64,000 nt of DNA. Source: Solirubrobacterales bacterium. Lineage in GTDB: Bacteria > Actinomycetota > Thermoleophilia > Solirubrobacterales > 70-9. The stretch lies in NCBI GenBank assembly GCA_021155855.1, contig JAJNAZ010000017.1:1-64000 (forward strand). The letters run 5' to 3'. The notes beneath the pieces were generated by a model, which worked only from the letters and a program-made list of their open reading frames with translations, was not told the origin of the DNA and made no database searches. Shown here piece by piece: positions 16,888 to 21,082 of this stretch. Position 1 is the first letter of the stretch, and each line of letters opens with the position of its first letter. The translations under genes were made by a program, and so were the position numbers.

Positions 16888-17619
16888 GTGGCCCGCGGGA
16901 TTCGCAGGCTCGGGCGCGGGGGCCGGGCCCGGCGCGCGCCGAGCAGCGGTCCGGACGCCCTGCGCGCGCTTCTCGATGAGCTGCCGCTCACCCTGCGTCG
17001 TCAAGGTCTCACGCACTCCTCCTGGGTCGAGCATCGGGCCGACTCATACGGCCGGCTCGCCTTCCTCGGCGACAGCGTCCTCGGCCTCGCGATCGCCGAG
17101 CATCTCTTTCGCCGCTTTCCGCGTGCTGACATCGGGCGGCTGACGAAGATGCACGGCCAGGCGGTCAGCGGGCGGGCATGCGCCGCGGTCGCGATCGCAC
17201 TCGGCGTACCGGCGCTGCTGCGAGACGCCTCGCCGCAAAGGCTCGAGGGCGGCATCGAGGTCGCCTCGCTGATCGCCTCCGAGCGCGCGCTCGCGTCGGT
17301 CTGCGAGGCCGTGATCGGCGCTTGCTATCTGCATCACGGCTTCGAGACCACCGCGGCGGCGACCGTGGCCGCGTTCACGGGCCAGCTCGAGATCGCCTCG
17401 GAGCGGCTGCTCGACTTCAAGTCGGCGCTCCAGGAGCGCCTCGCCCGCCACGGTGCCCGCGTAAGGTACGAGGTCACCGGCGAGTCCGGCCCTCCGCACG
17501 ACCGCGTCTTCGAGGTCACGGCGAGCGTCGACCGCGAGATCGTCGGTCAGGGCTCCGGACGCTCGAAGAAGGCGGCGGAGCAGGCGGCGGCCGAGCAGGC
17601 GCTGGACGGCCTCGGCTAG
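16888..17619 (+). CDS. rnc: Ribonuclease III family protein with degenerate active site
   Basis: RNase III fold followed by a dsRNA-binding domain (about residues 177-241, ending GQGSGRSKKAAEQAAAEQAL). The signature segment reads SYGRLAFLGDSVLG instead of NERLEFLGDxxL. By alignment with E. coli, E38 is G55, E41 is A58 and D114 is S137, while D45 (D62) and E117 (E140) remain. Two of the four conserved metal ligands are therefore gone. The gene position (acpP-rnc-smc) is orthologous, so this is the resident gene and not an obvious paralogue. It may bind dsRNA without cutting it, or cut by an altered mechanism. GTG start, 243 residues. Confidence 0.85.
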   Translation: MARGIRRLGRGGRARRAPSSGPDALRALLDELPLTLRRQGLTHSSWVEHRADSYGRLAFLGDSVLGLAIAEHLFRRFPRADIGRLTKMHGQAVSGRACAAVAIALGVPALLRDASPQRLEGGIEVASLIASERALASVCEAVIGACYLHHGFETTAAATVAAFTGQLEIASERLLDFKSALQERLARHGARVRYEVTGESGPPHDRVFEVTASVDREIVGQGSGRSKKAAEQAAAEQALDGLG

Positions 17620-17724: not shown

Positions 17725-20061
17725 ATGCATCTGAGCTCGATCACGATCAAGGGCTTCAAGTCCTTTCCCGAACGCACGAAGCTCGTCTTCTCGCCCGGCG
17801 TCAGCGTCATCGTCGGGCCCAACGGCTGCGGCAAGTCGAACGTCACAGACGCGGTTCTCTGGGCCCTCGGCGAGCAGAGCCCGCTCAGTGTCCGCGGCCA
17901 GACGATGCAGGACATGGTCTATGCGGGAGGCGACGGGATCGGTCCGAGCCGCTATGCCGAGGTCGAGGTCGTGCTCGACAACGACGGCGGCGAGGGCGAG
18001 TTCTCCGAGATCGCGATCCAAAGGCGGCTCGAGCGCGGGGGCGAGGGCAGCTACCGGATCAACGGCGCCCGGGCGCGGCTCGCGGATGTGATCGAGACGC
18101 TCGCAGACGCGAACCTCGGTCGCGAGATGCATTCGGTGATCAGCCAGGGCAGGGTCGAGGAGATCGTGCTCTCGGCGCCGCGCGAGCGCCGGCTGCTGGT
18201 CGAGGAGGCGGCGGGGCTCGGCAAGCATCGCAAGCGCCGGCGCCGCGCCCAGCTGAAGCTCGAGCGCACCCAGGACAACCTCGACCGTGCGCTCGACGTC
18301 GAGCGCGAGGCGCGCACCAGGCTGCGGCCGCTCAAGCGCCAGGCGCAGGCCGCCGACATCCACGCCCGGCTCGAACGCGAGAGCGCCGAGCTGCGCGCCC
18401 GACTTCTGGCTTCGGACCTGCATGCCCGGGAGGCGGAGCTTTCCACCGCAGAGGGTGACGCGGCGACCGCACGCGAGGCGCGAGAGCAGCTCGAGGGTCG
18501 GCTGGCCGAGGTCAACCGGCGCCGGACCGCGATCGAGGAGCGATTGGCCGACCGCGACCGCGAGCGCACCGAGGCGTGGGGGCGGTTGACCGCGGTGCGC
18601 GCCGCGCACGAGCGGCTCACCGTTCGGGGCGAGGCGCTCGCCGCCCGCCGCCTCGAGCTAGCGCGAACGCTCGACCGTGGCCGCGCCGCCTTCGGGGCGC
18701 TCGCCGAAGACCTGGCCGCGGCGGCCGGTGCCGGCTCCGGCGACGACCCGGTGGGCGCCGGGCTCGATCGAATCGCCGCGGCGCTCGAGCTTGCAGGGAC
18801 CGCGCTCGAGGCGGCCCGCGCGGCTGCCGCCGACGGGGATCGTGTTGCCGAGGTCGCCAGGATCCGCGAGGCGGCGGAGCGGGCGGGCCGGACCGCACGC
18901 CGGATCGAGGACCTGCTCGGCAGCCGCCGCCAGGATTCGCTCGCCGAGCGGGTCGAGCGCGAGGCCGTGCTGCTCGCTGCTTTGGCCGATCTCTGCGAGG
19001 CCGCCGCAGACGGTCGCGACGCCGCCGGCGAGCGAGCCGCGGCGCTCGAGCGACGGATGCTGGGCGGGAGCGGAGAGGACGATGTAACCGAGGCGCTGCG
19101 CGCCTGCTCGCGCCAGGAGGCGGAGCTGCAGGCGGAGCTGCGCACCACCGCCGAGACGGTGACCGCGGCCGAGGTCAGGGCCGCCCACCTCGGCGATCGC
19201 AGAGCGGAGGCCGCGGGCGAGCTCGAGCGGGTCGCGATCGTGCTCGGCCGCGAGGTCGCCGCCGCCGAGCAGCCGCTCGACGATCACGAGCGCGAGCAGA
19301 TCGAGGCCAAGCTCGAGCGGCTCGGGCGCCGACGCGAGCAGCTCGGGCCGGTCAACCCGCTGGCCGAGCGCGAGTACGAGGAGGCGCTGGCGCACGTCGA
19401 GAGCCTCGAGACCCAGCGGGCCGATCTCGAGACGGCGCTCGCCGAGCTCGAGTCGCTGATTCGCGAGACCGACGGCAAGATCCACGACGCCTTCGAGCAC
19501 ACGTTCGAGGCCACCCAGAGCAACTTCTCCGAGCTCGTCGAGCACCTGTTCCCGGGCGGCCGCGGCCGGCTGCGGCTGGTAGACGACAACCGTGGGCCGA
19601 AGCCGGTGTTGGGCGGGGCGGAGCCGGCCGATGCGGGCGTTGAGGCGGAGGCCGAGAACGAGGCGGAGCCGGGCGACGAGTTCGCCTCGCAGGGGGTGGA
19701 GATCGAGGTCACGCCCGCGGGCAAGGCCACTCGCCGGCTCAGCCTGCTCTCCGGCGGGGAGAAAGCACTGGTCGCGCTCGCCTTCGTCTTCGCCGTCTTC
19801 CTCGCCCGGCCCTCGCCGTTCTACATCCTCGACGAGGTCGAGGCTGCGCTCGACGATGCCAACATCGACCGCTTCCTGCAGCTCATTCGCCGGTTCTCCG
19901 ACCGGGCCCAGTTCATCATCGTCACCCACCAGAAGCGCACCATGGACGCCGCCGACGTCCTCTACGGCGTCTCGATGGGCAGGGGAGGCGTGACCAAGGT
20001 CGTCTCGCGCCGCTTCGAGCAGGAGCAGGCCGCGCTCGCGGGTGCCGCCGAAGCTGCCTGA
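17725..20061 (+). CDS. smc: SMC-type chromosome segregation ATPase, short, no visible hinge
   Basis: The N-terminal head has Walker A GPNGCGKSN (residues 31-39) and GQTMQDMVYAGG; the C-terminal head has the ABC signature LSLLSGGEKALVALAF and Walker B FYILDEVEAALDDAN, plus LGPVNPLAEREYEEA in the arm. The product is only 778 residues against about 1,150-1,200 for usual bacterial SMC. Between the heads there are about 425 residues of mainly Ala/Glu/Arg-rich coil, and no globular hinge sequence is recognisable. An acidic insert (about 630-655) lies just before the signature. The rnc-smc-ftsY position is the canonical one. No scpA or scpB is in the window. Confidence 0.85.
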   Translation: MHLSSITIKGFKSFPERTKLVFSPGVSVIVGPNGCGKSNVTDAVLWALGEQSPLSVRGQTMQDMVYAGGDGIGPSRYAEVEVVLDNDGGEGEFSEIAIQRRLERGGEGSYRINGARARLADVIETLADANLGREMHSVISQGRVEEIVLSAPRERRLLVEEAAGLGKHRKRRRRAQLKLERTQDNLDRALDVEREARTRLRPLKRQAQAADIHARLERESAELRARLLASDLHAREAELSTAEGDAATAREAREQLEGRLAEVNRRRTAIEERLADRDRERTEAWGRLTAVRAAHERLTVRGEALAARRLELARTLDRGRAAFGALAEDLAAAAGAGSGDDPVGAGLDRIAAALELAGTALEAARAAAADGDRVAEVARIREAAERAGRTARRIEDLLGSRRQDSLAERVEREAVLLAALADLCEAAADGRDAAGERAAALERRMLGGSGEDDVTEALRACSRQEAELQAELRTTAETVTAAEVRAAHLGDRRAEAAGELERVAIVLGREVAAAEQPLDDHEREQIEAKLERLGRRREQLGPVNPLAEREYEEALAHVESLETQRADLETALAELESLIRETDGKIHDAFEHTFEATQSNFSELVEHLFPGGRGRLRLVDDNRGPKPVLGGAEPADAGVEAEAENEAEPGDEFASQGVEIEVTPAGKATRRLSLLSGGEKALVALAFVFAVFLARPSPFYILDEVEAALDDANIDRFLQLIRRFSDRAQFIIVTHQKRTMDAADVLYGVSMGRGGVTKVVSRRFEQEQAALAGAAEAA

Positions 20062-20104: not shown

Positions 20105-21082
20105 ATGGAATGGGAAGAGCTGATCCCGAGCTCGGCTGGCCCACCGCCCGATGTGCGGCGGAAGCCGGAGCCGGGTGGACGCCTCGCGCGCCTGCGCGAG
20201 CGGCTCTCGAAGAGCCGCCGAGCGCTGCGGGCGGAGCTTTCGGCCAGCCTCTTCGACCGCCTCGACGCGCAGACGTGGGAGCGGCTCGAGGAGGCTCTGA
20301 TCGTGGCAGACGTCGGTGCCAAGGCGACGGCAGAGGTGGTGAGCAGGCTCGAGGCCGAGGTCGAGGCCGGCGAGGTGACCGGGCCCGAGGCGATCGAGGA
20401 GCGGCTGGTCGAGCTGCTCGCCGGGTTGGCCGGGCGCGAGACTCCGCGGCTGGAGCTCTCGGCGAAGCCGTCCCTGGTGATGGTGGTTGGGGTCAACGGC
20501 ACCGGCAAGACGACGACGATCGGCAAGCTCGCGGCGGCGCTGCGAGAGCGCTTCGGCCTCGAGGTGATTGTCGCCGCGGCCGACACCTATCGCGCCGCCG
20601 CGATCGAGCAGCTGGAGACGTGGGCCGAGCGGGCGGGGACGGAGATCGTCCGCGGTAACCAGGGCGGCGACCCCGGGGCGGTGATCTTCGACGCGATCGC
20701 GGCCGCCGAGGCGCGCGACGCCGATGTCGTGATCGCGGACACGGCCGGGCGCCTGCACACCCACGGCAACCTGATGGAGGAGCTGTCGAAGGTGCGCCGG
20801 GTGGCGGCGAAGCGCCTCGACGGCGCCCCGCACGAGACCCTGATCGTGATCGACGCGACCACCGGCCAGAACGGGCTCCGCCAGGCGCGGGCGTTCGCCG
20901 AGGCGGTCGAGGTCAGCGGCGTCGTGCTGACAAAGCTCGACGGCACCGCGAAGGGTGGGATCGCGCTCGCGATCGCCGGCGAGCTCGGGATCCCGGTGAA
21001 GCTGATCGGGGTGGGAGAGGCACTCGAGGACCTGCGCCCGTTCGACGCCGAGGAGTTCGCCCGGGCGCTGATCGCCGAGTAG
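20105..21082 (+). CDS. ftsY: Signal recognition particle receptor FtsY
   Basis: Membrane-associated SRP receptor GTPase of 325 residues. A short N-terminal extension is followed by the NG domain: VVGVNGTGKTTTIGKLAA (G1), ADTYRAAAIEQLE, IADTAGRLHTHGNLMEEL (G3), LTKLDGTAKGG (G4) and IGVGEALEDLRPFDAEEF. It lacks the long acidic A domain of E. coli FtsY, as is usual in actinobacteria. TAGCCT lies 9 nt before the ATG. It precedes ffh. Confidence 0.95.
   Translation: MEWEELIPSSAGPPPDVRRKPEPGGRLARLRERLSKSRRALRAELSASLFDRLDAQTWERLEEALIVADVGAKATAEVVSRLEAEVEAGEVTGPEAIEERLVELLAGLAGRETPRLELSAKPSLVMVVGVNGTGKTTTIGKLAAALRERFGLEVIVAAADTYRAAAIEQLETWAERAGTEIVRGNQGGDPGAVIFDAIAAAEARDADVVIADTAGRLHTHGNLMEELSKVRRVAAKRLDGAPHETLIVIDATTGQNGLRQARAFAEAVEVSGVVLTKLDGTAKGGIALAIAGELGIPVKLIGVGEALEDLRPFDAEEFARALIAE

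Follow-up and report, generated by a model that had tools for sequence, protein, structure and literature searches.

A 64,000-nucleotide stretch of a Solirubrobacterales genome (contig JAJNAZ010000017.1, positions 1 to 64,000; the whole stretch is hereafter the window) encodes a structural maintenance of chromosomes (SMC) protein that has both halves of the ATPase head and coiled-coil arms but no recognizable hinge. In the hinge's place it carries a predicted helical hairpin with a conserved basic motif. We consider it slightly more probable than not (roughly 55%) that this protein is a natural core-only Smc of a Smc–ScpAB complex, most likely a loop extruder, in which the ring would be closed by the hairpin tip. 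The gene is

17725–20061, + strand: hingeless smc, 778 residues (open reading frame translation, Pfam SMC_N, NCBIfam; homologues of about 775–820 residues in nine genera)

Absence of the hinge

We used the Pfam hinge model (SMC_hinge, PF06470), which as a control matches 33 of 35 long SMCs from the phylum. It has no match to the 778-residue Smc at E ≤ 10, is not among the matches listed at E ≤ 1 for any of 31 aligned homologues, and finds nothing above cut-off across the host genome, where the best score is 13.3 bits at another locus. When a profile of the 31 homologues was compared with one made from the hinges of 32 full-length relatives, hhalign gave a probability of 0.5%. The content of hinge-type residues in the middle segment is about that of the arms, and the segment is helical throughout in an AlphaFold2 (AF2) monomer model built from the 31-row alignment, with secondary structure assigned by DSSP; the arm is without any strand. 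The lack of a hinge reported in a preliminary description of this locus is thus borne out by the Pfam search and the profile comparison, and the latter, together with the model, argues strongly against a hidden hinge.

It is highly improbable that a hinge has instead diverged past recognition or that another protein provides it. Three short SMCs from another family (L142, L143 and L091 of family f7, described below) do retain a small alpha/beta cap undetected by Pfam, which lends the idea of divergence some substance. However, the corresponding segment of the window Smc is strandless, near arm level in residue content and dissimilar to hinges by profile, and a separate hinge protein is at odds with the lack of above-cut-off matches elsewhere in the genome.

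The CxxC motif is absent from all 31 homologues, and a zinc hook at the arm tip is therefore ruled out. We also rejected identity with Rad50/SbcC, the Rad50 models scoring far below cut-off, and with the archaeal proteins of the ASRP type (coalescin/Sph), for which model NF045487 scores 91.4 bits against a cut-off of 300; both of these also have the missing CxxC against them.

To define what was lost, we aligned the protein to a 1,075-residue relative (L053) whose hinge occupies residues 447–544. Besides the hinge, this alignment shows about 80 residues of the N-terminal arm and about 105 of the C-terminal arm to be absent from the window Smc, or about 297 residues in total. The losses from the two arms are similar in size, as the antiparallel coiled coil demands.

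A conserved tip in the hinge's place

The modelled helices span residues 166–331, 342–366, 370–446 and 451–507, followed by the joint and head. The arm and tip features are

18220–18717, + strand: N-terminal arm helix, residues 166–331 (AF2, DSSP)
18520–18600, + strand: conserved N-arm patch, residues 266–292, RR..EE..A.RDRxRT..WG.L..LR (column counts, 31 homologues)
18718–18747, + strand: loop breaking the N-arm near the tip, residues 332–341, with predicted local distance difference test score (pLDDT) below 50 at 334–340 (AF2)
18748–18918, + strand: predicted antiparallel helical hairpin tip in the hinge's place, residues 342–398 (AF2 helices 342–366 and 370–446, column composition)
18895–18939, + strand: conserved basic tip motif ARRxExLLGxRRQ/HRxx, residues 391–405 (conservation counts, 31 homologues)
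18919–19548, + strand: C-terminal arm, residues 399–608, including the GPVNPLA joint motif at 541–547 (AF2, alignment)

In the alignment columns, hydrophobic residues or alanine recur with perfect 3–4 spacing at positions 343/347/350/354/357/361/364 and again at 377/380/384/387/391/394/398. From the model and these heptads we infer a two-helix antiparallel hairpin that would turn near residues 367–371. The block 391–405 has a conservation of 0.87, equal to that of parts of the ATPase head, as against 0.54–0.77 for most arm blocks, and R393, E395, L397, L398 and G399 are invariant in the homologues. L397 lies off the heptad in surroundings rich in arginine and histidine, and the strand facing the motif on the N-terminal side is the flexible loop 332–341. 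The suggestion in the preliminary description that pairing might involve residues 330–460 is reasonable, since the distal arm is most strongly conserved at residues 391–405, inside that range.

The N-arm patch equals the tip in conservation (0.87) and contains an invariant tryptophan (W285); its invariant residues, W285 among them, are missing from the aligned full-length relatives in the same family. A Foldseek search of the PDB returned mainly SMC and Rad50 chains, matched through heads and arms, and was uninformative on the tip.

Conservation within one family and the sole SMC of the host genome

The window protein comes from a Solirubrobacterales family of actinobacteria that live in soil and freshwater, for which we use the code f1. 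A homologue is present in 47 of 50 f1 genomes. Some 30 of these are intact, ending at similar lengths (about 775–820 residues) and sharing identities of 54–72%, and the ATPase motifs are invariant across the 31 aligned sequences. Hingeless members occur in nine genera (g1–g6 and g10–g12, the last as fragments only). The comparison of SMC lengths proposed in the preliminary description sets these proteins apart from those of the sister genera g7, g8 and g9 within f1, which have a hinge and, where complete, 1,072–1,086 residues; the SMCs of Conexibacter and Solirubrobacter have about 1,070–1,117.

Because most of the genomes are metagenome-assembled genomes (MAGs), we considered an assembly or gene-prediction artefact, the chance of which is negligible: similar lengths recur in some 30 independent assemblies, among them genome G087, which is a single contig, and intact homologues of this kind in nine genera rule out an assembly deletion. 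The preliminary description had held that conservation in related genomes would make this a distinct SMC architecture. It is indeed conserved across most of the family, although hinge-less SMCs have a precedent in oceanic Actinobacteria (PMC12153180).

In a tree of SMC heads and FtsY, f1 is a clade with full support. Inside it the hingeless SMCs form two clades, which meet a clade of three full-length SMCs in a fork without resolved order. A constraint holding all hingeless SMCs together gave an approximately unbiased test value (p-AU) of 0.343, so that a single loss is not rejected. The tip motif common to the hingeless proteins favours one loss within f1, which on these sequences is the favoured, though not proven, history.

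The host genome (2.83 Mb, 96.3% complete) yielded a single SMC in an SMC_N search; by length and sequence the next matches read as RecF, RecN (L004 by sequence reading) and transporters. A PF13558 search returned only the window Smc and one sub-threshold match, at C61. The SMC_N and hinge searches together reveal no second, hinge-bearing SMC in this genome. The genes scpA and scpB, whose presence the preliminary description had proposed to check along with that of another smc, are both there and adjacent. Across f1, ScpA was found in 47 of 50 genomes and in 26 of 26 good ones. No hingeless f1 genome included in the hinge search has a match above cut-off, and thus no second hinge-bearing SMC was seen in them. 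Within the 64,000-nucleotide window no parS-like site (TGTTTCACGTGAAACA, up to three mismatches) was found.

Gene identity and neighbourhood

The remaining features of the locus are

17725–18219, + strand: N-terminal half of the ATPase head, residues 1–165, Walker A at 17815–17841 (sequence, Pfam SMC_N, AF2)
19549–20058, + strand: C-terminal half of the ATPase head, residues 609–778, signature at 19747–19764 and Walker B at 19819–19836 (sequence, Pfam)
16888–17619, + strand: rnc (ribonuclease III), upstream neighbour (open reading frame translation, identified by sequence reading)
20105–21082, + strand: ftsY (SRP receptor), downstream neighbour (open reading frame translation, identified by sequence reading)

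The reading frame begins with ATG (N-terminus MHLSSITIKGFKSF). Its split ABC ATPase head is complete, with Walker A (GPNGCGKSN, residues 31–39), signature (LSGGEK, 675–680) and Walker B (FYILDE, 699–704) sequences. Pfam SMC_N scores 213.9 bits with the model spanning the protein, and the NCBI equivalog for bacterial Smc, TIGR02168, scores 621.8 bits, above its cut-off of 567.35. Upstream of the gene is rnc, and downstream come ftsY and then ffh; with these flanks it occupies the orthologous smc position. The intact head halves, the position and the length of only 778 residues all agree with the preliminary description. Judged by descent from sequence and position, the gene is the orthologous chromosomal Smc, minus its hinge.

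Hinge loss elsewhere in Actinomycetota

Several SMCs of family f7, with 826–890 residues, match PF06470 weakly or in part. The same family includes short SMCs of 718–722 residues with no Pfam hinge (L142:1655–3820, L143:485–2638 and L091:3934–6099), which come from genera g66 and g71 and a named Thermoleophilia MAG. An AF2 model of L142 has a leftover strand-helix-strand-strand cap, roughly 40 residues in size. Taken whole, the f7 alignment reaches a probability of 97.8% against hinges; the three short proteins alone reach 7.6%. The relatives of 826–890 residues, with about half a hinge, suggest stepwise erosion.

Other SMCs without a hinge match are scattered across the phylum. In a Solirubrobacterales MAG outside f1 (palsa_744), the SMC at L116:2836–5718 has 961 residues and an apparently truncated hinge, while its relatives have full hinges. 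The SMCs of f16 (L164–L169; G+C content 32–40%, outside Thermoleophilia) have 736–790 residues and a poorly conserved middle, and their tips do not carry the f1 motif. Those of f34 (L170 and L171; G+C content 26–28%) have 885–893 residues and that of one f41 genome (L173) has 916; the middles of the f34 and f41 proteins look all-helical, as long arms without a hinge.

On a quick tree of SMC heads, the hinge label changes six times, and at least four of these changes are forced by well-supported branches; f16 and f34 are joined in this tree, which carries a long-branch warning. On that tree the hinge appears to have been lost or eroded elsewhere in Actinomycetota at least four times. The joint proposal, that hinges were lost repeatedly and independently in the phylum through half-hinge intermediates and that the new dimerization tip of f1 makes a core-only loop extruder, is tentative, and we put it at a little short of an even chance.

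A proposed core-only extruder and its alternatives

We propose that in the ancestor or ancestors of f1 the toroidal hinge was deleted together with matching distal parts of both arms. The ATPase heads, the joint and the arms of about 200 residues would bind and translocate or extrude DNA together with ScpAB, and the far end of the ring would be closed by the short basic hairpin, which would self-associate, probably in a small helical bundle centred on the invariant L397 and G399. Loop extrusion would be kept, and functions of the hinge ring (single-strand gating and the bypass of tethered obstacles) would be lost. In Wadjet, a complex in which nine residues took the place of the elbow-to-hinge segment could still cleave plasmid DNA, which reads out loop extrusion in that system, when its subunits were crosslinked; activity was gone once the link was cut, and the engineered core had lost obstacle bypass (PMC12647877). 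In Bacillus subtilis Smc, a zinc hook can stand in for the hinge (PMC5344682). Together, the crosslinked Wadjet and the B. subtilis zinc hook indicate that the core needs ring closure rather than the hinge fold.

Three points weigh against this proposal. B. subtilis Smc is non-functional once hinge dimerization is lost (PMC5344682), so that f1 would have to possess a compensating feature; the tip motif could serve to contact DNA or a different protein; and the AF2 confidence is moderate (mean pLDDT 76.8) for a model of a single chain. The tip might be open, the subunits being joined only by ScpA bridging and ATP-driven head engagement, with the hairpin serving as an end cap or DNA contact. ScpA is retained throughout, the conserved tip residues are largely arginine and histidine, as would suit DNA contact, and the tips of the hingeless f16 lineage are poorly conserved. 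We nevertheless regard an open tip as unlikely, because the engineered Wadjet core was inactive after its distal link was opened (PMC12647877) and a passive cap would not need the invariant L397/G399 patch.

Pairing could also have moved to an interface between the arms, for example with the N-arm patch around W285 facing the C-arm break at residues 447–450. The conservation of this patch and the lack of its invariant residues in full-length f1 relatives speak for such a role, but the patch may be a mere discontinuity in the coil or an elbow contact, and the intermolecular contact is purely conjectural; we consider this reading distinctly improbable. Less credible still is a gene that is decaying or repurposed and has lost its part in chromosome organization. 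The lost domain is essential in model species, yet this is the only SMC found, its ATPase motifs are invariant, ScpA, ScpB and synteny are retained, and at least nine genera have arisen in the lineage.

Relation to known systems

The window Smc shares with the bacterial Smc of Smc–ScpAB (TIGR02168) its heads, joint motif, antiparallel arms, ScpA and ScpB partners and rnc–smc–ftsY position, and differs in its missing toroidal hinge, shorter arms and helical hairpin tip. Rad50/SbcC and archaeal ASRP (coalescin, Sph) are likewise SMC-like ATPases with arms that end in a small tip, but they dimerize through the CxxC zinc hook that is lacking here. The SMC-like protein SMCL-1 of Caenorhabditis elegans reportedly has neither hinge nor coils; it is said to be a eukaryotic regulator alongside normal condensin SMCs, rather than a sole SMC.

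Hingeless SMCs as such are not new: a 2025 study described an abundant oceanic clade from Actinobacteria with SMC heads and neither hinge nor CxxC, its hosts and mechanism not known (PMC12153180). Those proteins, annotated to class Actinomycetes, come from marine gene catalogues only and lack genome context; neither a tip motif nor intermediates were reported (PMC12153180), and we liken them to the window Smc by description alone. The window Smc groups with hinge-bearing Solirubrobacterales SMCs in our trees, and its hinge loss is therefore likely to be separate from that of the oceanic clade. Our search of the literature on hingeless SMCs and on Thermoleophilia SMCs found nothing further. As far as the compared genomes show, what is new is the host genomes of another lineage, a sole Smc with ScpAB retained and a conserved replacement tip, as well as hinge-bearing sister genera, a series of intermediates and recurrence.

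The hinge was regarded as an essential component of SMC complexes, and recent experiments suggest a role in obstacle bypass rather than in DNA loop extrusion. Whole lineages that rely on one hingeless Smc would put that idea to the test in nature, and bear on the abilities of a minimal SMC, on how its ring is closed and on which features of a cell make the hinge dispensable. The range from full hinge through half hinge and small cap to no hinge within one phylum is ready material for such tests. A further parallel is the engineered Wadjet JetC core (PMC12647877), which has the functional layout predicted here, a core without the elbow-to-hinge periphery; that construct is artificial, disulfide-linked and derived from a non-chromosomal, plasmid-cleaving defence SMC, whereas the window Smc appears to be the natural counterpart of a minimal core-only SMC previously built only in the laboratory.
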